From: an uncultured Clostridia bacterium | GTDB lineage: Bacteria; Bacillota; Clostridia; Lachnospirales; CAG-274 | Assembly (NCBI GenBank): GCA_947585865.1 | Contig: CANPXH010000007.1 | Coordinates: 1-64,000, forward strand | Direction of reading: 5' to 3' | DNA length: 64,000 nucleotides | Shown: positions 47,325 to 64,000 of the stretch, piece after piece | How positions within the stretch are numbered: position 1 is the stretch's first letter | How the letters are laid out: the number at the start of each line of letters is the position of its first letter | Notes under the pieces: model-generated | The model's database searches: none | What the model saw: the letters and a program-made list of their open reading frames with translations, nothing else | Told to the model about the DNA's origin: nothing | Position numbers and translations under genes: made by a program

Positions 47325-47555
47325 ACCTTTGTTTCATCTGTTTCCCGATTTTGCAAAGGTCGGTTTGCAAAGCTGTTTTTACGATATTCATAACGCTGTG
47401 ATTATATGATGATACACGTTGGCATTATAAAAAACGATCGTATACGAAACATCAGAATACAACAATTCTGCTAAATATTTTCAGATTAAAAAACTCCTTA
47501 TATGACAAAATAATATTGTAACATGGTTACTAATATAAATAAGGAGGAAAATAAA

Positions 47556-47825
47556 ATGTCATCTAGTTCAAGCAGCAATAAGGTAAACATTCCTGAAGCA
47601 AGAGAAGCGATGGACAAGTTCAAGTATGAGGTCGCAAGCGAGATCGGCGTACCTTTAAAGAAGGGCTATAACGGCGACTTAACATCTGCTCAGAACGGCT
47701 ATGTAGGCGGTTATATGGTCAATAACGTGTTAACGAGACGGAGCAAGGAATTTCAAAGAACTACAGGGTGCGTAAACGGCGAAGTTTATTCTGTAAATTA
47801 CATATGTAATGTAGTGTTTGTATAA
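47556..47825 (+). CDS. Alpha/beta-type small acid-soluble spore protein with aberrant C-terminus
   Basis: NIPEAREAMDKFKYEVASEIGVPLKKGYNGDLTSAQNGYVGGYMV is SASP-like; tail NNVLTRRSKEFQ... is encoded by the 99-bp repeat. Confidence 0.8.
   Translation: MSSSSSSNKVNIPEAREAMDKFKYEVASEIGVPLKKGYNGDLTSAQNGYVGGYMVNNVLTRRSKEFQRTTGCVNGEVYSVNYICNVVFV
47721..47819. repeat. 99-bp direct repeat, left copy
   Basis: 98/99 identity to 52821-52919 (difference at 47757/52857); contains palindrome attacatatgtaat. Confidence 0.95.
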
Positions 47826-47899
47826 CACAAATTAAAAGACGTATTGGTTACTGATATTTTGATATATATCTATGAAGATAAAAGGCTATTCCAAATACC

Positions 47900-47930
47900 A
47901 AAAGCGGCATTGGGGATAGCCTTTTTGCCT
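47900..47930 (+). terminator. Rho-independent terminator-like hairpin
   Basis: aaggctattcc...ggatagccttttt (stem arms around 47881-47928). Confidence 0.6.
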
Positions 47931-48029
47931 AAATATAATATGTTGCTAAAGTATTATATTGAGCTTTAGACTCAAATATGTTATACTATCATAAGGGTTC
48001 TTAATTTTACGAGGAAGAAGGTGATAATT

Positions 48030-49068
48030 GTGGATATGTATATTATGAGTGGAAATAAAATTGTTGCGGAATATATAGGGAATTCTTTCAAAATCATAGA
48101 TAAAAAAACTTTGTCCGCTGTATCTTCTGAACACAGGAAATGTAGAGCATTGGCTTGAAATACATGCCATAGATTATCACCGAGCAAATTCAAGGCTTCT
48201 TAAAAAGACATTGAGACTTAAGGAACGTGATGACATAAGCACAGTTATGAGCGTAAATGTCGTTACGATAACGGATAATTATTGGGTAAAGCCTGTTGAA
48301 AGTCATTTGACATACAATGATGTGCGTTTTGACAATGACTATTTTTCAAACCTTGCACTTAAGGGAAACTACGGCAGCTTTAACAAGGCTATGAACAGTA
48401 AGCAAAGCAAGACCCCAGAGCTTACAAATACAGGCAGCTTTGAAAAGTGTTGGAAACTTAAAAACGGTGAGTGGTGGATGTACAAAAAGGCAGACCATAA
48501 CCGGCAGTTTACGGAGATATTTATAAGTCGCCTTGGCTTAAGGCTCGATATGAATATGGCAGTGTATGAAAGAGGAGAAAAATGTGTAAAAACAAAGGAT
48601 TTTACAAATAATGACAAAGTGAATTTTGAGCCTGCATACAGCTTTATGAACGATAACGAGGACTATATAGATGTGTATGAAGGTCTTAAAAAAATTGCAC
48701 CCCATACAATACCCGATTATATCAAAATGATATTTATGGACACTATTATGGCAAACCCCGACAGGCATACCTTTAACTTTGGTTTTCTGAGAAATATCAA
48801 GACCGGCTCTGTTATTGGACTTGCACCTAACTTTGATAATAATATGGCTCTTATAGCAAACGGTTATCCTGCAAATACACAGAGAAAAAACGATGCTTTT
48901 GTAAGGATATTTAATGAGTTTATGGAATATGATACTTCCCTTAAAAAATATATTCCTGTTCTTACCGAAAATGACGTAAAGGATACTATATTAGATATTA
49001 ATATGAAGGTCAGAACAAATGCTATTGTTGAATTTGTTTTGAATGGATATAAGCAGATTGATAAATAG
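48030..49068 (+). pseudogene. HipA-like kinase-fold protein, frameshifted at A7 tract
   Basis: GTG start with gaggaagaaggtg RBS; frame lost at A7 (48102-48108); downstream ORF KLKNGEWWMYKKADHNRQFTEIFISRLG...FMDTIMANPDRHTFNFGFLRN...PNFDNNMALI is HipA-C-like. Confidence 0.7.
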
Positions 49069-49417
49069 CATATATTTCAGACCTTGGCATTTATATGTGT
49101 AAATGAAAATCCTATATATCTGTAAAAATGAGAATAAACATAAATGGAAGTATTATTATAACAATTAAAGCTTTAAAGTAGCACAATTACCGAAATCTGA
49201 TTATATTATAGATGGCATTTGAAAAGTTGACGATATTAGATGGTATTTTATTTTTTCAAAATCTTCACCTTATATCTGATATCCTATTTTCAAAAAATAT
49301 TACTAATTATTTCTATCTTAACAATATAATAATATTAATAATTAAAAAAACTCTTGAAATAGTTTTATTTTTAGGTTAAAATATATATGATAGTTTCTTA
49401 GTATTAAAAGGAGTTAA

Positions 49418-49822
49418 ATGGTTATGAATGATCCTAAAATATTATTTGTAAAACAATTTTTGGCAATATTATCCAATAATAATCTAAATACTATACCTAT
49501 AAATAATAATTTATTTAAAATGGGCGTAGATAATATGTCAAGATATTTTAGAGAAAATAAAGCTAGTTTTGGACCATATGCAGATAAAATAGAGTTGCTT
49601 TTCCTCAAATATAATACTAAAGGGGATTATGCGCAGTTTTCTAAAGCAATTGAAGGGTTTAATGGTCGAATTGTAGCTTTAGAAAATCCACGATACATTA
49701 AAGCTTACATTAAATTGGAAAAGCCGTATATGAAAGAATTAATAAATAACAAGGAATTAGAAATAGAGCCAAATGTTATGTCAAATATAGTAAATTGTTT
49801 TATAAATGGTGCTTACATTTAA
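49418..49822 (+). CDS. Hypothetical small protein, first gene of HD/PRTase-like operon
   Basis: 134 aa; aaaaggag RBS; 26 bp upstream of HD gene. Confidence 0.65.
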   Translation: MVMNDPKILFVKQFLAILSNNNLNTIPINNNLFKMGVDNMSRYFRENKASFGPYADKIELLFLKYNTKGDYAQFSKAIEGFNGRIVALENPRYIKAYIKLEKPYMKELINNKELEIEPNVMSNIVNCFINGAYI

Positions 49823-49848
49823 ATTGCATATTAACAGGAGATATAATA

Positions 49849-51060
49849 ATGTCATTTTGTAGTTTATTTAATACAGACGATTTTAAATATGTATTTGCCG
49901 AAATTGAAAATTTTACTTATAAAAAGTTAAAGAATTATAATGACTACTTAGAAACTATTAATCTAAGTAAAAGAAATAAGGAAATATTTGATGCTGTATG
50001 GGGAAATATTGAATTTTCAGCAGGAGAAATATATATACTTGATTCTCCTCTACTTCAAAGATTGAGAAAAATTAAGCAATTAGGTTTAGCATCTTTTGTA
50101 TATTGTGGCAGTGACTACTCCAGATTTTATCATACCATAGGAGTAGTTTTTTTAGCGGATAGAATGGCTGAAGCATTAAATAAATGTGATATGAGTATAG
50201 AAATAAATAAACCATATTTTAAATCTGTTGTTAGATTGGCGGCAATTTTCCATGACATAGGGCATATGTTTCTCAGTCACGTTTCAGAACATTATTTTGG
50301 CAAGAGTCCATTATATCCTCGTAATGAAACTATAAGCAATATGCTTGAGACATTTGAAAAACATGCATGTAAAAGAGTTGCTTTGCATGAGCTTTTAGGC
50401 TGTATGATGGTTAATACCTCTGAAGTAAAACGTTTGATTATGATTGTCAAAAACAGAATTAATGCAATTCCTCTAAATGATAATAATGACATAGATACAT
50501 TAATAGAATACATCTCAGGATTAATAGTAGGTGTACCTGTGGACAGAACCATGCTTCCATATAGTAACATTATAAACGGTCCTATTGATGCAGATAAATG
50601 CGATTATTTATCTAGAGATTCCCATGTAACGCGCGTACCGGTTGCTGTAGATATTTCCAGATTAACACAGAAATTAAGCGTAGTACCCACTAAGGATATT
50701 AATATGTCTAGTTTATGGCACACCGAATCTGATTCTAATATACCATATTATGAATTAGCTATGTCTGATTCAGCTGAAAAAGCTTTATTTCAGTTGTGTA
50801 TTGCTAGAACTATTATGTTTGATAGTGTATATTATCATCACAAAGTACTTACAGCAGAAACAGAATTAAGGGAATTGTTAAATCAGTTGTCTAATATGGA
50901 AGAACCTATATTTACTTCCTTTAATGAAATACTTGAGTATGCTGATGATGATTTTAATAAATATTTTTTTGAAAAAATACAAAAATCTCGAAATGACAAA
51001 GATAAAAAAACTATTTCAGAAGTGCAAAAAAATTCGAAAAATTATATGAACGTAATCTAG
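49849..51060 (+). CDS. SAMHD1/dGTPase-like HD-domain phosphohydrolase
   Basis: LDSPLLQRLRKIKQLGLASFVYCGSDYSRFYHTIGV, AAIFHDIGHMFLSHVSEH, GPIDADKCDYLSRDS; ATG 49849 with aggag RBS. Confidence 0.85.
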   Translation: MSFCSLFNTDDFKYVFAEIENFTYKKLKNYNDYLETINLSKRNKEIFDAVWGNIEFSAGEIYILDSPLLQRLRKIKQLGLASFVYCGSDYSRFYHTIGVVFLADRMAEALNKCDMSIEINKPYFKSVVRLAAIFHDIGHMFLSHVSEHYFGKSPLYPRNETISNMLETFEKHACKRVALHELLGCMMVNTSEVKRLIMIVKNRINAIPLNDNNDIDTLIEYISGLIVGVPVDRTMLPYSNIINGPIDADKCDYLSRDSHVTRVPVAVDISRLTQKLSVVPTKDINMSSLWHTESDSNIPYYELAMSDSAEKALFQLCIARTIMFDSVYYHHKVLTAETELRELLNQLSNMEEPIFTSFNEILEYADDDFNKYFFEKIQKSRNDKDKKTISEVQKNSKNYMNVI

Positions 51061-51080
51061 CAAAAAGGATTATTTGTATT

Positions 51081-52556
51081 ATGCCCGACTTCCTTGAGGG
51101 AACTCAAAGCAATAAAGAAAAATTATTTGATGATATATTAACCTCCTTAAATTCTAAGCAAGAAAAAAATTTACAGAATAATATTATTGAACAATATAAA
51201 CAAATATGTGATATATTGGACAAAACTGATTTTATTGATGATGATTGTTCTGTTTTCATTATACAATCTCCAACAAATGTATATGGACACAGTAATATTC
51301 AAGTGCCAATAAATTTATATAATGGAAACAAAAGAGAATTTAGAGGATATGAGCTCGTTAACAGTCGAGATATTAGTAGTTCTGCTTCATATATTGTTGC
51401 AAATTCAAGAGATAATCTTATTGTTTTTATGGCTACAGAAAAAGTGCTTTATCAAACGTATCATATAAAATTAAAAGCTGAAAGCAGTGCTTGTGGAAAG
51501 TTTGATATAAAATTAGAAAGAGAATATTATGATAAACTAATAAATGCTGGTTATTATAACGATACACCAGATTTAATAAAAAAATCTATTCTTCGTAACT
51601 ATATTTCGGACAATAAAATTAAAAATATTAAAGATAAGTTTTCTTCATATGAAGGACCAAATGGTTATAAAATAAATGAGGAAGAAATTTCTTATTTTTT
51701 TAAACAAATTCTTTGTTTATGCGAAACTGCAACAAAAGCCCGTATAATTATGAATGGAATATATGAAATGTTAATTAAGGCAAATTTTATTAATAGATTT
51801 TTCTTTTCACAAAGTTTTTCGAGCTTTTTGGAAACCAATGGACTTTCTTCTCATAAACTTACAGTAGTTCCATTAGGTGGTTCAAAAGACAGCGCAAAAC
51901 ATTTAATGTATTATTTCAATGATGTTAATCAAAATAACCTAGAAATAAAAGAAAGCTTAAAAGAAGCCCTTGAAGAAGATAATAACAATATTTTAGTTTT
52001 TTACGACGATGGTTCATACTCTGGAAAGCAAATGATATCTATAATGCAAGAATATATGGACATACCAATTGAAAAGCGGTCTACTCACGAACATCATGTA
52101 AAACCTTTAGATGAAGAGCTTAAAGACAAATTGAAGGAAAAAACAATCATTTTTTATTTTCTTTTGTTTAATTCAGAGAATCTGGAAAGTACAAAAAAAC
52201 AATTAGAAGAAATTGGCTTAAAAAATATAAGGTTTGCGTTTTCACAAAATATGGATAAAAAAATATTTGAGGATGATATATTATTTACCGATGAAGACCA
52301 AAAAACAATGGTAAAAGATTTTTTAAGTGAAATCGGATATGCTGTATTAAAATCATCAAAATGTAAAAATGGCACATATAGTAAAGGTTGGGATGAGGAA
52401 AGGATTTGCCTTTCGGCTTTAGGATATAATGATTCACAGCAGATGGTATTCCTGCAAGCAAGTGTTCCCACATATACTATTACGGCATTTTGGCAAGAAG
52501 GAATTTATAATAGTTTAAAATGGAAGCCATTATTTCATCGAACTAAAAAAAAATAA
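51081..52556 (+). CDS. Phosphoribosyltransferase-like protein (possible PRTase-CE-type)
   Basis: 491 aa; NILVFYDDGSYSGKQMISIMQEY resembles the PRPP-binding loop (hhhhDDxxxTGxT) preceded by LTVVPLGGSKDS. Confidence 0.6.
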   Translation: MPDFLEGTQSNKEKLFDDILTSLNSKQEKNLQNNIIEQYKQICDILDKTDFIDDDCSVFIIQSPTNVYGHSNIQVPINLYNGNKREFRGYELVNSRDISSSASYIVANSRDNLIVFMATEKVLYQTYHIKLKAESSACGKFDIKLEREYYDKLINAGYYNDTPDLIKKSILRNYISDNKIKNIKDKFSSYEGPNGYKINEEEISYFFKQILCLCETATKARIIMNGIYEMLIKANFINRFFFSQSFSSFLETNGLSSHKLTVVPLGGSKDSAKHLMYYFNDVNQNNLEIKESLKEALEEDNNNILVFYDDGSYSGKQMISIMQEYMDIPIEKRSTHEHHVKPLDEELKDKLKEKTIIFYFLLFNSENLESTKKQLEEIGLKNIRFAFSQNMDKKIFEDDILFTDEDQKTMVKDFLSEIGYAVLKSSKCKNGTYSKGWDEERICLSALGYNDSQQMVFLQASVPTYTITAFWQEGIYNSLKWKPLFHRTKKK

Positions 52557-52685
52557 ATTTAATTTTTCAAAATAAAAAGATATGCAAAAGCAGAGTTTTT
52601 TATGTATGTATCCAATATTCAAAGTTCATCCTAAAGATTTTAAAACGACAAGGAGAAAAAGAAATGAAAGTCTTACAGGATAGGA

Positions 52686-52813
52686 ATTAAAATAAATAAT
52701 GTCAGTGATTTTCAAAAATACTTTAGGCAGCAGAGACTTGGTGAGTATTTTGGTTATTCCAAGTATAAGTACAATTACAGAAATAAAGATACAAACAACA
52801 GTTACAATGGATA
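52686..52813 (+). pseudogene. Gene 3' remnant immediately upstream of right 99-bp repeat
   Basis: Open reading IKINNVSDFQKYFRQQRLGEYFGYSKYKYNYRNKDTNNSYNG* without start. Confidence 0.35.
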
Positions 52814-52820
52814 AAGTAAA

Positions 52821-52919
52821 AATAACGTGTTAACGAGACGGAGCAAGGAATTTCAACGAACTACAGGGTGCGTAAACGGCGAAGTTTATTCTGTAAATTA
52901 CATATGTAATGTAGTGTTT
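52821..52919. repeat. 99-bp direct repeat, right copy
   Basis: aataacgtgttaacgagacggagcaaggaatttcaacgaactacagggtgcg... Confidence 0.95.
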
Positions 52920-53139
52920 ATGCAGTATGCACAGGAAATGTAACAGACATATTTGTCACTGATATTTGATTATATATCTATAAATTTGGGGAGCAATTAT
53001 ATCAAAATTGCTCCTTTAAATTTTGGAATTATAAGTCGGAAAATATATTATTTTGAAAGTTTTAGAATTATAAGTCTAAAACTATTGACTTTTTTTAACT
53101 CTTAGATTATAATGAAATAAAAATTTCGTGAGGTGTATT

Positions 53140-54369
53140 ATGGCAGAGCTTATTGACCGTCCGCAATATTTAAATCAGCTTATAGAAAACAAGGATGTAG
53201 ACTTGGTAAAGATAGTTACGGGTATACGCAGATGCGGAAAGTCCTCGCTTCTTGATCTGTTTCATAGGTATCTCATTGAAACAGGTGTTCCGGAAGAAAA
53301 TATTATTCACATGAACATGGAATCCCTGCAATATAGAAAACTTACAGGCTACATTGATTTTTACGATTATATCAGCAGGAATGTTTCAAGGCAAGGGAAA
53401 ACATACCTTATATTTGATGAGCTTCAGGCTGTGGAGCATTGGGAAAAGGCGGTAGAATCCTTCCGTCTTGATTTTGATGTGGATATATATATAACAGGCT
53501 CCAATGCCTACCTCCTGTCCACAGAGTTTTCTACATTGCTTTCGGGCAGATATGTAGAGATAAAGGTGTTGCCCTTGTCTTTCAAAGAGTTCCTGACTTT
53601 CTATGAATTTGCCCCCGAGATAACGGTAGAGGAGAAGTTTCAGAAGTATTTGCAGTTCGGCGGTATGCCCATACTAAGAGAGTATCGATTTAACGAGGCA
53701 AGGAGCAATCAGGCGCTGGAGGGCATTTATTCCACAGTTATACTGAGAGATATTCTGCAGCGCAACAATCAGGTCGACCAAAATACTCTGCATAAGATAA
53801 TACTTTTTCTTTGTTCCAATTTAGGCAGTATAACATCTCCCAATAGCATTGGCAACATTCTTTACAATGAGGGAGATATTCGGAAAGGCAAAAGGAAAAA
53901 TGTTGCAGGCAAAACCGTGGATAAATATATATCTATGCTGCGTAGCGCCTTTGTGTTTTATTCCGTAGGTCGATATGATGTAAAGGGAAAACAGCTCCTT
54001 AAAACACTTGGCAAAAATTACATTGTAGATCTGGGCTTTCGCAATATGCTTCTGGGCTACAGGGATGCCGACAGAGGGCATATTCTTGAAAATATTGTAT
54101 TTCTGGAGCTTATTCGTCGGGATTATCGTGTTTATATAGGTAAGGTAGGAGAAACAGAGGTTGACTTTGTTGCAGAAAAGCCTGATGATAAGCTGTATAT
54201 ACAAGTTACCGAAAGTATGCAGACTCCCGAAACAAGAGAACGTGAGCTGCGTCCTCTGCGTATGATAGCCGACAACTATGAAAAAATAGTACTGTCAATG
54301 GACAGAAGCTATATAAATTCCTATGACGGAATAAAAGCTCTGAATATTATTGACTGGCTACTGTCATAA
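53140..54369 (+). CDS. AAA ATPase with DUF4143
   Basis: IVTGIRRCGKSSLLDLF, YLIFDELQAVEHWEKAVESF, YITGSNAYLLSTEFSTLLSGRYVEIKVLPLSFKEF. Confidence 0.9.
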   Translation: MAELIDRPQYLNQLIENKDVDLVKIVTGIRRCGKSSLLDLFHRYLIETGVPEENIIHMNMESLQYRKLTGYIDFYDYISRNVSRQGKTYLIFDELQAVEHWEKAVESFRLDFDVDIYITGSNAYLLSTEFSTLLSGRYVEIKVLPLSFKEFLTFYEFAPEITVEEKFQKYLQFGGMPILREYRFNEARSNQALEGIYSTVILRDILQRNNQVDQNTLHKIILFLCSNLGSITSPNSIGNILYNEGDIRKGKRKNVAGKTVDKYISMLRSAFVFYSVGRYDVKGKQLLKTLGKNYIVDLGFRNMLLGYRDADRGHILENIVFLELIRRDYRVYIGKVGETEVDFVAEKPDDKLYIQVTESMQTPETRERELRPLRMIADNYEKIVLSMDRSYINSYDGIKALNIIDWLLS

Positions 54370-54540
54370 AGAGTGGATTTGCTTATTTATGTAATTTGGT
54401 TTTTATCCAAAAACAATAGTTAGTCTTGAAAATATATGTAAATACAAGAGTTTCATTATAAAATAATGTGCTTACTACACCATTTTTTGAAAGAGCTTTG
54501 ATTTGACATTTTTTACAACTTAATATTAATTTTTAGTGAT

Positions 54541-54575
54541 AAGAGCAATTATGTATATAGTTGCTCTTTTTTTAT
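54541..54575 (+). terminator. Terminator
   Basis: aagagcaattatgtatatagttgctcttttttt. Confidence 0.75.
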
Positions 54576-54604
54576 ACAAATTTTTATGAACATAGGAGGT
54601 AATT

Positions 54605-54844
54605 ATGATTTTACAGATGGACAAAGACCTGACACTTGAGGAAATGGGTGTTGTTGCAACAATGATAAATCTGCCTGTGGCTGATTACGCAACAGCCGAG
54701 TATCTTGCTGAACTAAGCACAGATAGCGTTGAAAAAATCAACAGGATATTGGCTAGTCTTATGGAAAAAGGCTATGTACTCAGTATAGAGGGTAAGTATG
54801 CTGTAAACAAAGAAAAAATACCGCAAATGGCAAGGAGGCAGTGA
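54605..54844 (+). CDS. Hypothetical small winged-helix-like ICE protein
   Basis: 79 aa; RBS ggaggt; directly upstream of replication gene. Confidence 0.6.
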   Translation: MILQMDKDLTLEEMGVVATMINLPVADYATAEYLAELSTDSVEKINRILASLMEKGYVLSIEGKYAVNKEKIPQMARRQ

Positions 54845-54845
54845 T

Positions 54846-55733
54846 ATGTCAGTATTCAGAGTGGAAAAGACCAAGAATTATACGGTAATGTCAAACTATC
54901 ATCTGAAAGATACAAGTCTGTCATATAAGGCTCGTGGGATATTGTCAACTATATTATCTCTACCCGATAACTGGGATTATACCCTTACAGGCTTGGCAGC
55001 AATATCCAAAGACGGAGTTGCTTCTGTGAGAGCAGGCATAAATGAACTGGAGGCTGCCGGATACATAGTCAGGATGCAGAGCAGAGATAGTAAAGGACTT
55101 TTTGACAAGAATGTATACAATGTTTATGAAATTCCACATAAAGAGCCAAAGCCTTTGGAAAATAAGGATATACAACCGTTATGCGAAAATCACACAACGG
55201 AGGTTTCACCGTCATGCGATTTTCCGATAACGGATAATCCGTCAACGGGAAATCCGTTGTCGGAAAACAGCACACAATTAAATATTAATATATCAAATAC
55301 AGATAAATCAAATACTGAAGTATCAAATACTCAATCTATCTTATCTTATCCTGATGGGATAGATATGATAGAAAAGTATACCGAGCTAATCAAACAGAAT
55401 ATTGACTATGCAGCTCTTACTTCTCACGAAAATCAGAGCGACAAAGAAAGGGTAGATGAGATTGTCAGCATTATGGCTGAAACAGTTGCTTTTAGCAACA
55501 AATCCATATACATAAACGGGAACATCATTCCTTCGGAAGTTGTAAAAAGCAGGCTGCTTAAATTAGATTTTGATGATATTCAGTATGTTTTGATAGCCCT
55601 TTCACGCTGTACCTCAAAAATAGGCAATATAAAAGCCTATCTACTGACAACATTATACAATGCCAAGTCTACAAGAGCAAATTATTACAGTACGGAAATA
55701 CAGAGGGATTTGTTCGGTTCAAAGTCTACCTGA
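54846..55733 (+). CDS. ICE/plasmid replication-type helix-turn-helix protein (DUF6017-like)
   Basis: VMSNYHLKDTSLSYKARGILSTILSLPDNWDYTLTGLAAISKDGVASVRAGINELEAAGYI. Confidence 0.8.
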   Translation: MSVFRVEKTKNYTVMSNYHLKDTSLSYKARGILSTILSLPDNWDYTLTGLAAISKDGVASVRAGINELEAAGYIVRMQSRDSKGLFDKNVYNVYEIPHKEPKPLENKDIQPLCENHTTEVSPSCDFPITDNPSTGNPLSENSTQLNINISNTDKSNTEVSNTQSILSYPDGIDMIEKYTELIKQNIDYAALTSHENQSDKERVDEIVSIMAETVAFSNKSIYINGNIIPSEVVKSRLLKLDFDDIQYVLIALSRCTSKIGNIKAYLLTTLYNAKSTRANYYSTEIQRDLFGSKST

Positions 55734-55770
55734 CTTGCTCTGAATACAAAAATTACAAGGAGGTGTTGGC

Positions 55771-56223
55771 TTGTTCAGTATAGATTTTTTGATAACACGA
55801 AATATAGAATACCTGCTTAACAAAGCTGAAAATATTGTGGATAAAACCGAGATATTGCTGCAACTCATAGAGTTTCCGAGATATTTTTCGGAATATATGC
55901 AGGAAATAAGTGAAAAGTGGTATATACATACAAACACAAGGTATAACGAGGAGGAGTATATTATACCTGATGACGATATGAATTTCATACGGGAGTATGC
56001 CGATAAAATCAACAACATTACAAAGGTCAAAGAGCTTATAAACAAGCTCGCAAGCCTTAAAGACGGTGTATATGATTATGATGCAATAATGGCAGAGGCA
56101 GAGAACGATATTTCTCTCTTTACTCACATAGATGATTTTAATTTTACAGGCAGCAATACTTCAAAGAGAAACAAAAAGCCAAGTATAACTTCTCTGCTTA
56201 AATCTATGCCGAAGCATACTTAA
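55771..56223 (+). CDS. Hypothetical ICE protein
   Basis: 150 aa, TTG start after aaggaggtg. Confidence 0.6.
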   Translation: MFSIDFLITRNIEYLLNKAENIVDKTEILLQLIEFPRYFSEYMQEISEKWYIHTNTRYNEEEYIIPDDDMNFIREYADKINNITKVKELINKLASLKDGVYDYDAIMAEAENDISLFTHIDDFNFTGSNTSKRNKKPSITSLLKSMPKHT

Positions 56224-56355
56224 ACAAAAAATCTTTTATATATACAACATTTGCTAAGGGCTTGCAATATAAAGCCATTCAACATATCTTGACATTTCAT
56301 CGTACTTATAATAAAATAAATATACAGAAGAATACAGTTATATGAGGGTAAAAAT

Positions 56356-57288
56356 ATGGAAACAAACACACCTGTTTCAAAAACAATAGATACAGCCTAC
56401 AGAAATCCAAAACTTGACGAAGCCTGCAAAAAGGTTTTGTCCTTCAAAATAATACTGGCTCACATTCTGAAGGGCTGTCTTGAGGAATTTAAGGACATAG
56501 ATGTAAACGACATAGCGGAAAAGTATATTGAGGGAAAACCTCTTGTATCGAAAGAAGCCGTACATCAAGACGAAGGCATCGTGATAGACGGCAAAAACAC
56601 CGATGACAGCTCCATAGACGAGGGTACGGCAAGATATGATATTCTTTTTGATGTATTTGTCCCCGTATCAAATGAACAAGTAAAATTAATCATTAATATA
56701 GAAGCGCAGAGCCGGATAACGTCTCTGGATAATCTTCTCAGACGTGCAAGATATTACTGCGCACGTATGCTGTCGCATCAGTACGGCAGAGAATTTATGA
56801 AAAGCGAATACGAAAATATCAAGAAGGTATTTTCCATATGGGTGCTTACTGATCCCCGTGTGGAAATGAGAAATACAATTAAGAGGATCTATCTTACGGA
56901 AAAAAATTTGGTGGGTAATGCGCCGAACCTCAGAGAATATTACGACACAGACGAGGTTATCCTTGTCGGTCTCGGCAGCGAGAAGGACGACAACTATTCG
57001 GGACTTCTCAAAATGCTTGACGTTCTGTTTTCCGAAAGCGTAAGCATAGATGCAAAGAAAAAAATTTTGGAAAATGAATATAATATAAAAATGAGTGAAG
57101 AAATGCAAACGGAGGTGTATGAAATGTGTGATTACAGCTTAGGTGTATATGACAGAGGCGTGGAGAATGCTAAATTGGCAGATATAAAAAATGTTATGGA
57201 AGGTTTGAGTATGTCTTTGGAAAAAGCACTTGAACTTTTAAAGATTCCGAAATCAGACTATGCAAAGTATGAGGAATTGCTCAAATAA
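56356..57288 (+). CDS. Rpn-type PD-(D/E)XK nuclease family protein
   Basis: ARYDILFDVFVPVSNEQVKLIINIEAQ PD-(D/E)XK core; C-terminal MCDYSLGVYDRGVE...YAKYEELLK. Confidence 0.85.
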   Translation: METNTPVSKTIDTAYRNPKLDEACKKVLSFKIILAHILKGCLEEFKDIDVNDIAEKYIEGKPLVSKEAVHQDEGIVIDGKNTDDSSIDEGTARYDILFDVFVPVSNEQVKLIINIEAQSRITSLDNLLRRARYYCARMLSHQYGREFMKSEYENIKKVFSIWVLTDPRVEMRNTIKRIYLTEKNLVGNAPNLREYYDTDEVILVGLGSEKDDNYSGLLKMLDVLFSESVSIDAKKKILENEYNIKMSEEMQTEVYEMCDYSLGVYDRGVENAKLADIKNVMEGLSMSLEKALELLKIPKSDYAKYEELLK

Positions 57289-57335
57289 AAGAACACTAAA
57301 AGGCAGGGCAGTATGTTCTGCCTTACTTTATATCT

Positions 57336-57638
57336 TAAAGTGTAAGCATAAATACCAAGAAACTGGTACTTGAAAGTGAATATGATATAAAGATGAGTGA
57401 GGAATTGCAAACGGAGGTGTATGAAATGTGTGATTACAGCTTAGGTGTATATGATAGAGGTGTTGAGAAAGGTATAGCTCAGGGTATGGCTCAGGGTATG
57501 GCACAGGGTATAGAAAATGCTAAATTGGCAGATATTATGAGTATTATGAAAAATTTGGGAATGTCATTAGACAAGGCTTTGGAGGCTTTAAATGTTCCAA
57601 AGTCCGACTATGCAAAGTATGAGGAATTGCTCAAATAA
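57336..57638 (+). CDS. Duplicated C-terminal fragment of Rpn nuclease (81-aa ORF from 57393)
   Basis: MSEELQTEVYEMCDYSLGVYDRGVEKGIAQGMAQGMAQGIENAKLADIMS...YAKYEELLK; homology to the upstream gene starts around 57337. Confidence 0.75.
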
Positions 57639-57815
57639 AAGAGCGCAATAGGGCAGAGCATAATAATATAATGTTCTGCTTTGCTTTTTATACACATCAA
57701 AAATAACGTGATTTTATGAACACTTTTGGAAAAATCCGAAAGTGTTTTTTTATTTGAAGAAAGGAAATGATGAAATGCGTGTCATTAGACCACCCTGAAA
57801 CAATATTACAAGGAG

Positions 57816-58280
57816 GTGATTACTTTGTTAGAAGAACAAGGTAACAGCTTATTAACTAACTCGGCTAAAAACTTATTGAGATTTTTAAGCAGACATACAG
57901 GGAATATTATAAGATATTCAACCCGAAAGGCTGTAACACACTATTCCGAAACAGGAAAAAAGAGTGTTAAAAATCTGGTCAGGAAAGGGCGTGACTTGGA
58001 ACTGACACAAGAAATTGAATCCAAAGAAAAACTGAAAGCTATATGCAGTCAATGTAAGCGGCAAAACATAGCCTTTGCAATAAAAAAGACTGAAAATGGG
58101 TATCAACTATTGTACCAAAAGAAGGACAGCTCATTGGTCAATGACAGCCTTAACAGAGTATTGGCAAAGCAAATGAAGTCTAAAAGTCCACTTAACAAGC
58201 TCCTGCAAAGCTATCAGAAAATTAAACCGCAGCACAACAGGGCAGCTCATACCAAGCAAAGGGAGAAGAACAGCCGATGA
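57816..58280 (+). CDS. PcfB family protein (DUF3801)
   Basis: 154 aa basic, IKKTENGYQLLYQKKDSSLVNDSLNRVL; 4-nt overlap with virD4. Confidence 0.75.
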   Translation: MITLLEEQGNSLLTNSAKNLLRFLSRHTGNIIRYSTRKAVTHYSETGKKSVKNLVRKGRDLELTQEIESKEKLKAICSQCKRQNIAFAIKKTENGYQLLYQKKDSSLVNDSLNRVLAKQMKSKSPLNKLLQSYQKIKPQHNRAAHTKQREKNSR

Positions 58281-60124
58281 AAAAAAGCAATATCATATTT
58301 TTAGCTGTTATTGCCCTTTTGGTCTTTTATGTGGCTGACCGATGTTACGAGATATATTCTCTATCGGCATACACCACAATGCTTGATAAGTTGAACGATA
58401 TGGCGGAAAACTACAATGTTATGTTTAGCAAACCGTATATAAGTTTTGAAAAAAATGCGATGCTATGCGGTTTTGTCGGTGTTTTTTGCTATTTCCTGGC
58501 TGTCGTATATTATATATTCGGCAGAAAAAACTATATGCAGGGTATAGAACACGGCTCTGCAAAATGGGGAACAGCATCTGACATTGGCAAATACATAGAT
58601 AAGTCTTTTCAGAACAATATGCTTTTCACAATGACCGAAAGAATGAGCCTTAATACAAGGAAAACAATGCATAACAACAATGTTCTTGTAATAGGCGGTT
58701 CAGGCAGCGGTAAAACAAGGTTTTTCTTAAAACCAAATCTTATGCAGCTCCATTCAAGCTATGTGATAACCGATCCGAAAGGTACGGTATTGAACGAAGT
58801 AGGACAGCTTTTTGCAGATAACAGATATGTCATAAAAACATTCAATACTGTGGATTTCAATAAGTCTATGCATTATAATCCATTCGGATTTATTAAAAGC
58901 GAGGCAGATATAAAGGTTTTTACAGACTTGCTTATAACAAGCACAAAGGAAAAAGGCGAAAAGTCTGCCGACCGGTTTTGGGAAAACTCCGAAAGGCTTT
59001 TGTATATGGCTCTTATCGGCTATATATACTATGAACTGAACGAGGAAGAACATAACTTTGCATCGCTTATTCGTATGATAAACTCTATGGAAGTACGGGA
59101 GGATGACGAAACCTTTAAAAATCCTGTTGACTATATGTTTGAGGAACTGGAGATCGGAACAGAGGAGTTTTGCAGAAAATATGAACTGCAAATTGAGCCT
59201 GACCGAGAGATAAAGCCTCCGCAGCCCGAACACTTTGCCCTTTCTCAATACAAAAAATACAAACTTGCCGCAGGAAAGACAGCAAAGTCAATACTTATTT
59301 CGTGCGGTGTCAGACTGGCTGCCTTTGATGTAAAGCAAGTAAGAGATATGACAATGTATGATGAAATGGAATTAAGCAGCATAGGCGACAGAAAAACAGC
59401 CTTATTCATAATAATCGATGATAAGGTATCTACGTTTAATTTCCTTGCAGCTATGATGTATTCACAGCTTTTCAAAGAATTATGCGATAAAGCCGACAAT
59501 GTATATGGCGGAAGACTGCCTGTTCATGTAAGATGTATGCTTGACGAATTTGCAAATATAGGACAGATACCGAACTTTGAGAAGATCATATCTATAATCC
59601 GTTCAAGGGAAATATCTGTAGATGTAATTGTGCAGAATATGGCACAGATAGAAGCCATATACGACAAGCAAGCAGGAACTCTTGTTGGTAACTGTGATAC
59701 TACTCTGTTTCTTGGCAGCGGAGAGGACAAGACAATGAAGTCCATATCCGAGAGAGTTGGAAAAACAACTATAGACCACAGGGGAACAAGCACTACCAAA
59801 GGGCAGCAAGGCAGTTACAGTCTGCAAGACCAAATTTTAGGGCGAGATCTTATAACTGCTGATGAAGTAGGCAGGCTTGATAATGAGGAGTGTATTTTAT
59901 TCATACGAGGCTTAAGGCCTTTCAAGTCAAGAAAGTACAATATAAAATCACATCCAAACTACAAAAAATCCGCCGACTACGATAAAAGCAAGCTGTTTGA
60001 TATAGTGGAATACAATAAACAATTAGCCGAAAAAGAGAAATCAGATAATGAAAACTTTAACATTGAGGAATACATACTTGATGATAAGGATTTAGAAATC
60101 CTTGAAATTCAGGGCTTGTTATAA
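58277..60124 (+). CDS. Type IV coupling protein VirD4/TraG family
   Basis: NVLVIGGSGSGKTRFFLKPNLMQ, MLDEFANIGQIPNFEKIISIIRSREISVDVIVQ. Confidence 0.95.
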   Translation: MKKSNIIFLAVIALLVFYVADRCYEIYSLSAYTTMLDKLNDMAENYNVMFSKPYISFEKNAMLCGFVGVFCYFLAVVYYIFGRKNYMQGIEHGSAKWGTASDIGKYIDKSFQNNMLFTMTERMSLNTRKTMHNNNVLVIGGSGSGKTRFFLKPNLMQLHSSYVITDPKGTVLNEVGQLFADNRYVIKTFNTVDFNKSMHYNPFGFIKSEADIKVFTDLLITSTKEKGEKSADRFWENSERLLYMALIGYIYYELNEEEHNFASLIRMINSMEVREDDETFKNPVDYMFEELEIGTEEFCRKYELQIEPDREIKPPQPEHFALSQYKKYKLAAGKTAKSILISCGVRLAAFDVKQVRDMTMYDEMELSSIGDRKTALFIIIDDKVSTFNFLAAMMYSQLFKELCDKADNVYGGRLPVHVRCMLDEFANIGQIPNFEKIISIIRSREISVDVIVQNMAQIEAIYDKQAGTLVGNCDTTLFLGSGEDKTMKSISERVGKTTIDHRGTSTTKGQQGSYSLQDQILGRDLITADEVGRLDNEECILFIRGLRPFKSRKYNIKSHPNYKKSADYDKSKLFDIVEYNKQLAEKEKSDNENFNIEEYILDDKDLEILEIQGLL

Positions 60125-60247
60125 ACATACTCTGAAATTATGTTGAGTGAAGTTGCTATATATAACAAATATCAGTCCGATTGAAATGTTTTAGGATATG
60201 TGGTATAATGATATAAAATATAATCGGGCTTAGATGAGAGGTGTATT

Positions 60248-61117
60248 ATGAGTAATAATTCTATTCAGCTTTTTGAGGATAAGGCAATAAGAACCGCTTG
60301 GGATGAGGAAAAGGAAGAATGGTATTTTTCTGTTGTAGATGTTGTCGGTGTTCTGACAAATTCCGAAAATCCAAGAAGGTACTGGAGCGACTTAAAGCGA
60401 AAACTGAAAATGGAAGGAAGTCAGTTGTACGAAAAAATCGTACAACTGAAAATGAAGTCATCTGACGGTAAATATTATAAAACCGATGTAGCCGATACAG
60501 AACAGCTTCTCCGTATTATCCAGTCAATACCGTCACCAAAGGCAGAGCCTTTCAAAATGTGGCTCGCACAGGTAGGCAGAGAAAGAATAGAGGAAACCAT
60601 TGACCCTGAGCTTGCAATGGACAGGGCTTTTCTTACATATCAGAAAAAAGGGTACAGTAATGAGTGGATACAGCAAAGGCTGTTGTCCATACGGATAAGA
60701 AACAATCTTACCGAGGAATGGGACAAGCACGGTGTAACAAAAGGCAGAGAATATGCTATTCTGACAGACGAAATAACAAAGGCTTGGTCAGGAATGCGAA
60801 CCCGTGAGTATAAAAGATTGAAAGGTTTGAAAAAAGAAAATTTGCGTGACAACATGAGCGATATGGAATTGGTACTCAATATGCTTGCGGAAGCAACCAC
60901 AACAGAGCTTTCAAAGGTTGCCGATCCAAAATCCTTTAAAGAAAATGTGGCTGTAGCCCGTCAGGGAGGCAATATAGCAGGAAACGCAAGAAAGGAAATA
61001 GAAAGCTCAACAGGAAAGTCTGTTATAACATCGGAAAATGCAATACAGCTTAATGAAGTTGTTGTAAATACCATTGAGGGCGTTATAGATGCAGACAATG
61101 AAAAAAATAATAATTAA
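60248..61117 (+). CDS. BRO-N domain antirepressor-like protein
   Basis: FEDKAIRTAWDEEKEEWYFSVVDVVGVLTNSENPRRYWSDLKRKL. Confidence 0.85.
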   Translation: MSNNSIQLFEDKAIRTAWDEEKEEWYFSVVDVVGVLTNSENPRRYWSDLKRKLKMEGSQLYEKIVQLKMKSSDGKYYKTDVADTEQLLRIIQSIPSPKAEPFKMWLAQVGRERIEETIDPELAMDRAFLTYQKKGYSNEWIQQRLLSIRIRNNLTEEWDKHGVTKGREYAILTDEITKAWSGMRTREYKRLKGLKKENLRDNMSDMELVLNMLAEATTTELSKVADPKSFKENVAVARQGGNIAGNARKEIESSTGKSVITSENAIQLNEVVVNTIEGVIDADNEKNNN

Positions 61118-61167
61118 GATATTGGGAGCAATCAGAAAGATTGCTCTTTTTTATTTGGAGGGATTAT

Positions 61168-61509
61168 ATGAAAAAGTTTTTAATCAATGAAAAGAGAAAC
61201 AAGAAAAGATTAAGTGCTATGCTCAGAAGTATAGTTATGACAGCAGTTATGACCGTATCGGCAGGAATATCCTATTGCTATGCTGCAAGTGGCGCAGATG
61301 CTATAAATACGGCTAAAAGCCTTTTATCAAAGGGTGCGACCGCAGGCGGCGGTTTATGGGCTGTATGGGGACTTGTTCAGCTCGGTATCGGTATAAAGGA
61401 CCACAATGGTCCCGGTATACAGGGAGCTATATGGCAGATCATAGGCGGTGCAATTATTATTGCAGCAGGAGCAGCGGTAGCGGCTTTGGATTTATCTATA
61501 ACTGCATAG
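61168..61509 (+). CDS. Maff2-type/VirB2-like small membrane protein of conjugative element
   Basis: Two TM; LLSKGATAGGGLWAVWGLVQLGIGIKDHNGPGIQGAIWQIIGGAIIIAAGAAV. Confidence 0.75.
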   Translation: MKKFLINEKRNKKRLSAMLRSIVMTAVMTVSAGISYCYAASGADAINTAKSLLSKGATAGGGLWAVWGLVQLGIGIKDHNGPGIQGAIWQIIGGAIIIAAGAAVAALDLSITA

Positions 61510-61554
61510 TTTGCATTACCTTAACTTTATGTAAGGCTAATTATGGAGGTAATT

Positions 61555-62400
61555 ATGAGTTTTATAGAAACTATGATTTCAGACCTTTGTAATCTTGCAT
61601 TGGAAGCCGGATTTGCAGGTTCTTTGACTAAGACGCTTGCACAGTACAATCCAACTACAAATAACACAATAATAAATCTTATGAAAAACAGCGTGTTTGC
61701 TATTGGTGCATCTCTGCTTACATTGTTTATGCTTATAGAACTTGTAGCTATGGTAAACAGGTCATCAGGCGATAATGGACTTGGAAGTATAAAACTGCCT
61801 GTCAATATACTTATTAAGTTTGGCATATTCGCCTTTTTGTTCTGTCATATACCTCAGATTTTAACAGCTATTGAGGAAACAGCCGTCAATGTGGGCAATG
61901 GTATGATTACGGGTGCAACATATACATTTGGTGTGGGAGTAAGCACAAGTCAGGTAACAATGATAGCGAATGCTATCGATAATCTTGACTTTTTTAATAA
62001 GATATTCACCTACATAGTTGTATTTGTGTGTTGGATTTTTATCCACCTTGTAGAAGCGATAATAAGCATTACTACTGTTTTCAGGGTTTTTGAGCTTTGG
62101 CTGTTACTGCTGTTCTCACCTATTCCCCTTTCAACATTTGTAAGTCAGGAATTCAGACCTACGGCATTGAATTTTCTCAAAAATTTTACTGCCGTATCCT
62201 TGCAAGGAACAGCGATAATAGCCTGTTTTATGATATATCATGCTCTTATTGCATCATTTATAATTGATTATGATCCTGCAACAGATATAAGTAAGTTTAT
62301 AAATTCATTTCTGCTTCAAAACATCATATATACGGCGGTTCTTGCTGTTTCGATATTTTCAAGCGGCAGAATCATAAAGCAGATAATGAATGCTGTGTAG
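61555..62400 (+). CDS. VirB6/TrbL-like conjugal transfer membrane protein
   Basis: Polytopic; RVFELWLLLLFSPIPLSTFVSQEFRPTALNFLKNFTAVSLQG. Confidence 0.85.
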   Translation: MSFIETMISDLCNLALEAGFAGSLTKTLAQYNPTTNNTIINLMKNSVFAIGASLLTLFMLIELVAMVNRSSGDNGLGSIKLPVNILIKFGIFAFLFCHIPQILTAIEETAVNVGNGMITGATYTFGVGVSTSQVTMIANAIDNLDFFNKIFTYIVVFVCWIFIHLVEAIISITTVFRVFELWLLLLFSPIPLSTFVSQEFRPTALNFLKNFTAVSLQGTAIIACFMIYHALIASFIIDYDPATDISKFINSFLLQNIIYTAVLAVSIFSSGRIIKQIMNAV

Positions 62401-62620
62401 AGGGAGTATTAATATGCTTTAGAAAAGATAAATATATGCGAAAGAAAAGAGCCACTGTCGTGACTCTTTTCGGTTCGACCCGCTAGGGGTAAAATATAAT
62501 AATGTTTGACCCATAAGGGTAAAATTATTTTACAATTTTAAAGCCTCATTACCATTCGCTTAAATTATATCATTTATTAGTACACTTTGCAACAAATTTG
62601 TGTAGAGGGAGGTGTGATAT

Positions 62621-63217
62621 ATGTCAATAGAAGTACGAGTACCGGAGGAAATAGAGGACTACAAGGAAAGTATAGTTGCAGGTTTATCTGTAAGACAGCT
62701 TGTGTGCAGCGGAATTGCTTTGTTATGCGGAATACCTACATTTCTTCTTCTAAAAAATATCAATGCCGATTTAGCAACATATTCAACAATGATAGTGGTT
62801 GTTCCTGCTTTTTGTGTGGGATTTATAAAGAAAGACGGCTATAACTTTGAAACATATCTCAAAATAAGGCTTTATAATCTTTTAAGTAAACCGCAGCGAG
62901 GATATGAAAGCAATCCCGATGAAAATGTTCTGCCCATAGAGGTTGAGGAATACAGAGCTGCAATACAAATTGTGCAAAAAGAGGAAATAAAGCAGGTAGC
63001 GAGCAATGCAGATAAAAAGAAAAGAGGTGAGAAATTTGTTTTATTCAAAAAGAAATGTCAAAATAGAAAAGTTAAAGCAACAGCAAGGTATGAATATGAC
63101 CTTGCTGAAATCTCAGCGAAAAGCATTAAAAGAAAGAGAAAGGCAGCGTACAAAAGCATTAAAGCAGCAGAAGGATACCATAGAGAGAAAAAACAAAAAG
63201 AAGAAAAAACAGCTTAA
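62621..63217 (+). CDS. PrgI family (VirB3-like) protein
   Basis: IEVRVPEEIEDYKESIVAGLSVRQLVCSGIALLCGIPTF. Confidence 0.85.
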   Translation: MSIEVRVPEEIEDYKESIVAGLSVRQLVCSGIALLCGIPTFLLLKNINADLATYSTMIVVVPAFCVGFIKKDGYNFETYLKIRLYNLLSKPQRGYESNPDENVLPIEVEEYRAAIQIVQKEEIKQVASNADKKKRGEKFVLFKKKCQNRKVKATARYEYDLAEISAKSIKRKRKAAYKSIKAAEGYHREKKQKEEKTA

Positions 63218-64000
63218 AATGAATGCTACACCAAAGAGTTGTCAGCAGACCCTGAATTATAAATATCTTTTTCAGAATGGTATATGTCAGGTAGGAGATA
63301 ACTTTTTCTCCAAAATGTTGAAGTTTTCGGATATAAATTATCAGGTTGCACAGCGTGACGAGCAGATAGAGATTTTTTCAAAATATTGTGAACTTCTCAA
63401 CTACTTTGATTCTTCGGTTAATATTCAGATAAGCGTTCACAACAGACGTATTGATAAGGCTGAGTTTGAAAATCAGATGTTATTGCCTATGCTTGATGAC
63501 GATAAGAATGAGCTTAGAGCAGAATATAACAAAATGCTTGAAACAAAGGCTTTACAGGGACAGAACTCTCTTATAAGAGAAAAATACATAACCTTTGGTA
63601 TTGAAGCAGAAAATTATGATGCTGCCTATCCTGCGCTTATGCGACTTGAAACCGATGTTACAAGCCTTTTTAAATCTTTGGGCTGCGATGTTATGAGCGT
63701 AAGCGGTGAAGAAAGATTGAGCTATATGAACAGTATTCTCAATCCTTCCGAAAACCTCAAATTTGATTATGATTATCTTGTGGGAACAGGATTGTCTACA
63801 AAGGATTTTGTATGCCCGTATTTCTTTGATTTCAAGGTGGATAATAAAAGGACAGTATTTGAATTCGGGGATTATTTCGGACAGGTCCTTATGATAAAGA
63901 AATTTCCTACAGACTTGTCCGATAAGCTGCTTAATGCTCTTTCGGAAATCCCCTGTAACACTACCATAAATATTCATTCCAACTCAACGGATAATGCCAA
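63036..64000 (+). CDS. VirB4-like ATPase, partial (runs off window)
   Basis: Open frame from TTG 63036 (gaggtg RBS): YKYLFQNGICQVGDNFFSKMLKFSDINYQVAQRDEQ...KKFPTDLSDKLLNALSEIPCNTTINIHS. Confidence 0.85.
   Translation, partial: MFYSKRNVKIEKLKQQQGMNMTLLKSQRKALKERERQRTKALKQQKDTIERKNKKKKKQLKMNATPKSCQQTLNYKYLFQNGICQVGDNFFSKMLKFSDINYQVAQRDEQIEIFSKYCELLNYFDSSVNIQISVHNRRIDKAEFENQMLLPMLDDDKNELRAEYNKMLETKALQGQNSLIREKYITFGIEAENYDAAYPALMRLETDVTSLFKSLGCDVMSVSGEERLSYMNSILNPSENLKFDYDYLVGTGLSTKDFVCPYFFDFKVDNKRTVFEFGDYFGQVLMIKKFPTDLSDKLLNALSEIPCNTTINIHSNSTDNA

Follow-up and report, generated by a model that had tools for sequence, protein, structure and literature searches.

The three closely spaced reading frames at positions 49418 to 52556 of the window (the whole stretch of 64,000 nucleotides that we analyzed) are more appropriately described as two genes. 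Judged by comparison with its relatives, the unit is a two-gene system, in which a small gene, whose product has 125-150 aa, is followed by a gene for an HD enzyme fused to a PRTase-CE domain. We interpret it as two genes rather than three because the HD and PRTase parts occupy one ORF in relatives, and it is the large gene that is split in the window. On balance, we think it probable that the window holds an acquired copy, with its frame broken, of a two-gene system that is widespread and whose intact relatives protect against phages. We infer this anti-phage role, which is the most likely one, from sequence comparisons, and the same holds for the enzyme activities and for what the small protein does.

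The sequence-only reading that preceded this work proposed an operon of three genes in which the PRTase is a partner protein of its own. The three co-directional ORFs, the gaps of 26 and 20 bp between them and the motifs quoted from them are all present. However, the independent partner must be given up, as relatives carry HD and PRTase as one protein. The relevant features of the window are as follows.

47721..47819, + strand: left 99-bp direct repeat, at the end of a SASP-like ORF
47820..52820, no strand: inserted island that carries the operon together with a HipA-like gene (GC 0.289; G006 and G008 have the empty site)
49418..49822, + strand: small protein, 134 aa, homologue of the conserved small partner (profile linkage, AlphaFold, weak winged-helix match)
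49849..51060, + strand: SAMHD1/COG1078-type HD core ORF, 403 aa from the ATG at 49849 (Pfam, PDB profiles, tblastn)
50251..50256, + strand: predicted HD catalytic pair H135-D136 (kept in 80/81 sequences)
50587..50607, + strand: DADKCDY motif including D249 (D249 kept in 80/81)
51025..51033, + strand: A-rich stretch with the -1 frame change that splits the fused gene (frames, tblastn)
51081..52556, + strand: 491-aa ORF, the second half of the fused gene, with the rest of the HD C-lobe, a linker and PRTase-CE
51765..52541, + strand: PRTase-CE domain, residues 229-487 (Pfam, PADLOC)
51990..52034, + strand: PRPP-loop-like segment ILVFYDDGSYSGKQM (alignment)
52821..52919, + strand: right 99-bp direct repeat, 1 mismatch to the left repeat

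The split large gene and its domains

In about 30 relatives, including ones from Clostridia, the HD and PRTase halves lie within a single ORF of ~900-945 aa. When one of these proteins (L058, fused, 903 aa) is compared to the window using tblastn, residues 1-394 align to positions 49849-51024 in one frame and residues 397-901 align to 51030-52544 in the -1 frame; the homology of the 403-aa HD ORF to the fused protein stops at about 51024. Translation of the other frame across this junction yields a close homologue of the fused relatives, and a run of seven A nucleotides (51026-51032) is located at the point of the frame change. The segment that follows the HD core, here called the C-lobe, includes residues 1 to about 143 of the 491-aa ORF and is also found in relatives that have no PRTase (profile comparison, HHalign E 1e-18 to 1e-20). 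It is therefore the HD enzyme itself that is interrupted, and not a junction between two enzymes. In relatives the HD core and C-lobe form one polypeptide, an arrangement that the frame change disrupts in the window, and this genome probably has an impaired system. Other members of the PRTase class are also broken, by frame changes (L085, L048), an internal deletion (L065) or truncation (L067).

Two alternatives would leave the system active. It is conceivable, though improbable, that the split is functional, with the halves either translated separately and then reassembling, or produced as one chain through -1 ribosomal slippage on the A run. The 491-aa ORF does have its own ATG at 51081 behind an AAAAGGA-like sequence that by eye is a plausible ribosome site, and the A run coincides with the frame change. 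However, about 30 relatives are fused, the cut falls within the C-lobe, and the HipA-like gene of the same island is frame-changed as well. We rejected programmed frameshifting, for which the RNA structure downstream of the run is no better than expected by chance (z -0.23). We also doubt that the frame change is a sequencing or assembly error in an organism whose fused gene is intact, even though it sits in a homopolymer of a draft genome with 81 contigs. A/T runs of at least 7 nucleotides occur 38 times in intact ORFs of the window (a set biased to intact ORFs), the alignment of the flanking element with G008 has 3 gap openings in 4.35 kb, and the island contains a second frame change, in the HipA-like gene.

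The 403-aa ORF matches the Pfam HD family (PF01966) with 35.1 bits, where the cut-off is 22. In a profile search of PDB, the solved structures nearest to the HD core are the bacterial COG1078-type protein 2hek (5.7e-46) and SAMHD1 (about 1e-37), which upholds the earlier assignment to SAMHD1-type HD enzymes. The residues H95, H135, D136 and D249 are conserved in 80-81 of 81 sequences; based on the motif alignment, D249 presumably corresponds to the metal ligand D311 of SAMHD1. Thus both the sequence relation and the catalytic H..HD..D set of SAMHD1/COG1078 dNTPases are found, and we predict that the HD core is a SAMHD1-like dNTP triphosphohydrolase.

The 491-aa ORF scores 97.5 bits with the Pfam PRTase-CE family (PF24390), whose cut-off is 27, so the PRTase identification is right and not a chance match. 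Residues D309, D310 and G315 of the PRPP-loop-like segment are invariant in an alignment of 30 sequences. The AlphaFold model of this ORF (pLDDT 88.5) resembles orotate and hypoxanthine PRTases in Foldseek, with modest significance (best E 2.8e-3). The PRTase-like domain suggested earlier is thus genuine and a PRTase fold is seen; what does not stand is its description as a separate protein, because it is the C-terminal module of the HD protein. Phosphoribosyltransferase activity of PRTase-CE is predicted from this relationship.

As a single-sequence query, the PRTase ORF found no match in contigs representing one genome per species, where the HD alignment did succeed. The PRTase alignment had no match in viral contigs, and the PRTase profile gave nothing useful against PDB sequences. 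A search with PF24390 in the class returned mostly ordinary PRTases of low score, and only five genomes besides that of the window stand out. The PRTase ORF was not found in the 47 other genomes of the family. The 853-aa protein L046:2088-4649, whose architecture is unrelated, also contains a PRPP-loop-like segment (VILDDFIGSGKS).

The small partner and the family

Searches of Pfam, PADLOC and NCBIfam gave no match at E <= 1 for the 134-aa protein. Its AlphaFold model is confident (pLDDT 94.9), and the best PDB matches to this model are winged helices of ORC1 and MukE. Because these matches are weak (E 0.15, TM below 0.5), we treat "winged-helix-like" only as a lead. Foldseek comparison of the model with viral models gave nothing significant, and the profile gave nothing useful against PDB sequences. 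A DNA-binding role is not favored, since most of the small homologues are acidic (median net charge -4); the window protein, at +4, differs from this majority.

An alignment of the HD protein detected 326 relatives in the one-genome-per-species contigs, 80 of which were retained for analysis. Using an iterated profile, we found a homologue of the small gene at 74 of these 80 HD-first loci, one at each, and no others in the total of 3,637 ORFs. At the 74 loci it is mostly directly upstream of the HD gene, with a few cases downstream or divergent. The small profile matches all seven plasmid and viral members of the HD clade, versus none of seven more distant HD loci. The reverse test used three surveys of about 395 genomes each. 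In the 14 genomes obtained (the window's own excluded), all 14 small genes detected by the small profile alone adjoin an HD gene. A conserved small partner is therefore supported by linkage in both search directions, and the genes do co-occur in other genomes.

Four of the 14 small-first genomes have a truncated or frame-broken HD gene, although two of these contigs are only about 2 kb long. Such breakage is what would be expected of a costly effector. In all four (L166, L167, L168 and L169) the adjoining small gene is open, and it is possible that the HD gene is recurrently inactivated or that these cases reflect assembly gaps.

Based on length and tail, the 80 relatives comprise 33 with PRTase-CE, 10 of about 820 aa with a nuclease-like tail, 13 of about 570 aa and 24 of about 510 aa. 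The nuclease-like assignment derives from a GGxxDLI...ENK pattern seen by eye in tails that have no Pfam match. To judge from these sequences, the family is an HD chassis with exchangeable tails, which are plain, nuclease-like or PRTase-CE. On a tree of the HD proteins, the window copy clusters with PRTase members of Lachnospiraceae (100/99 support), and the PRTase class forms more than one group. HD relatives occur in Bacillota, Actinomycetota, Pseudomonadota, Planctomycetota, Chloroflexota, desulfobacteria and others, and members of the chassis are also carried on plasmids and viral contigs. The pair is present in only about 1-2% of surveyed genomes.

The insertion island and its neighborhood

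The window copy was horizontally acquired, in a recent insertion. In the congeners G006 and G008 the 99-bp repeat is single and its flanks are contiguous, i.e., these are empty sites of a 5.1-kb insertion. In two other congeners, G005 and G007, homology ends at 47725, where the repeat starts. The repeat also makes the C-terminal end of the SASP-like ORF (47523-47825). The flanking block encodes replication-initiator-like and DUF3801 proteins, as detected with profiles, along with coupling-protein and T4SS-like ORFs recognized by inspection, and on the basis of these genes it is a conjugative element. This element spans 47447-64000 with the SASP-like gene at its edge, and blocks about 91-97% identical to it are present in G006 and G008 without the cargo. 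The GC content is 28% in the operon, versus 37% in the conjugative element and 40% in the rest. Mobility of the candidate system is thus supported by both the empty sites and the conjugative element.

The HipA-like gene that shares the island (48030-49068) matches PADLOC PDC-M03A at 2e-9 and has its frame change near the 5' end, around 48110-48117. Just downstream of the island, an AAA_14/DUF4143 ATPase gene (53128-54369) strongly matches PADLOC PDC-S01 (5.8e-154) and is also present in the empty-site congeners. At 56356-57638, a 310-aa ORF is followed by an 81-aa ORF that repeats its C-terminal end, by appearance a partial duplication.

Defense genes are close to some of the relatives. The surroundings of plasmid relatives include integrases, a Septu ATPase and a CBASS cyclase with ThiF, and CBASS or Septu genes are near an HD relative at two plasmid loci. 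Because the matches to defense genes among 120 scanned neighbors were scattered and the scan had no control set of neighbors, we do not claim enrichment. For the closest Lachnospiraceae relatives, direct neighbors are nearly devoid of PADLOC matches, again with no control set.

Proposed function and relation to known systems

Several observations led us to favor an anti-phage role for the intact relatives: the fusion found in relatives, the two-way linkage of the small and HD genes, the relation to SAMHD1 with conserved catalytic residues, the PRTase domain shared with type III-A retrons, the sporadic spread, the occurrence on plasmids and viral contigs, the recent insertion, the low GC content, the proximity to CBASS and Septu at two plasmid loci and the broken HD genes in four of 14 genomes. 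We counted against it the near absence of PADLOC neighbors in Lachnospiraceae and the weak fold match of the small protein. In such a system, the small protein would sense infection or restrain the HD enzyme, whose core, once released, would hydrolyze dNTPs. PRTase-CE could be a second effector, with PRPP and bases or nucleotides as its substrates, or could bind PRPP as a sensor. This attack on the nucleotide pool would stall both phage replication and the cell.

It is important to consider that the pair might instead be an addiction module resembling a toxin-antitoxin system, in which the HD-PRTase protein is the toxin, the small protein is the antitoxin, and mobile elements are stabilized rather than phages stopped. 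The two-gene order with the small gene first, the mobile location and the fact that the large gene is often lost from beside an open small gene all agree with this idea. However, the swapping of C-terminal effector modules is seen more often in immune effectors, and CBASS and Septu genes are nearby, so we regard an addiction module as rather unlikely; the toxin-antitoxin and immune readings do overlap. Far less plausible still is a housekeeping enzyme for dNTP control with a PRTase fusion. In its favor, HD proteins of the COG1078 type are common and have known dNTPases among their relatives. However, the rarity of the pair and its sporadic, mobile distribution, the absence of the PRTase ORF from those 47 family genomes, the recent insertion and the lack of the small gene beside distant COG1078 members make this explanation highly improbable.

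Among characterized systems, Clover, which consists of the dGTPase CloA and the nucleotidyltransferase CloB, with the dGTPase restrained by its partner's nucleotide signal (PMC12265719), seems to be the closest documented functional analogue of the anti-phage system that we propose. Both combine an HD dNTPase with a regulatory partner in two genes. However, the HD enzyme of the window belongs with COG1078/SAMHD1 and has the extra PRTase-CE, while the small protein matches no nucleotidyltransferase or other family in Pfam, PADLOC or NCBIfam and has a winged-helix-like model. With SAMHD1/COG1078 dNTPases, the family shares the HD core and catalytic residues, to which it adds a dedicated small partner and C-terminal effector modules; no SAM domain was found. 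The C-terminus of the RT_UG10_large model (DRT7/UG10) resembles PRTase-CE (E 4.4e-7), but only this part of the model matches, and the window protein lacks the RT part. HD-CE (PF24391) is an HD family with a sister name. It has no match at E <= 1 to the window HD, and a weak, sub-threshold match to L084 (19.3 bits, cut-off 27).

The names PRTase-CE and HD-CE come from comparative-genomics work on conflict systems. The domain families are already known and named, while PADLOC 2023 contains no model for the two-gene organization with its exchangeable tails. The small-HD pair falls outside those models, despite 326 HD relatives in one genome collection and a small gene at 74 of the 80 examined. 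Our literature search found no paper on the pair, although subscription papers could describe one; it found none mentioning PRTase-CE, and nothing relevant when HD-CE was included. We raise, tentatively, the possibility of an undescribed immune family that is built on a SAMHD1-like dNTPase chassis with a small winged-helix-like governor and a second effector that can be exchanged (nuclease-like, the PRTase of type III-A retrons or none at all). If this is true, the PRTase version would couple two active sites, e.g., by converting PRPP and HD products into an unusual nucleotide that serves as poison or signal.

The effector of type III-A retrons has the same domain as the window protein. PADLOC PRTase_III-A matches residues 179-491 of the window's 491-aa ORF (E 6.8e-15) and L058 (E 1.9e-18), and the retron effector and the window protein have a PRPP-loop-like DD motif in common. 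In the window, however, this domain has a SAMHD1-like HD enzyme as its fusion partner and a small gene upstream, and no retron RT was found by translation and Pfam among ORFs at 44-58 kb. One polypeptide of the family would unite SAMHD1-type dNTP destruction with the type III-A retron effector, in many phyla. We found no account in the literature of how the retron PRTase acts, and the intact HD-PRTase-CE protein is a handle for learning what PRTase-CE does. By contrast with the window, an RT_III-A gene does come after the PRTase-CE gene in L042, which is from the same class. This locus (L042:8369-11646) appears to be a type III-A retron, with PRTase-CE, a 750-bp gap, RT_III-A and a 191-aa ORF that has no PADLOC match.
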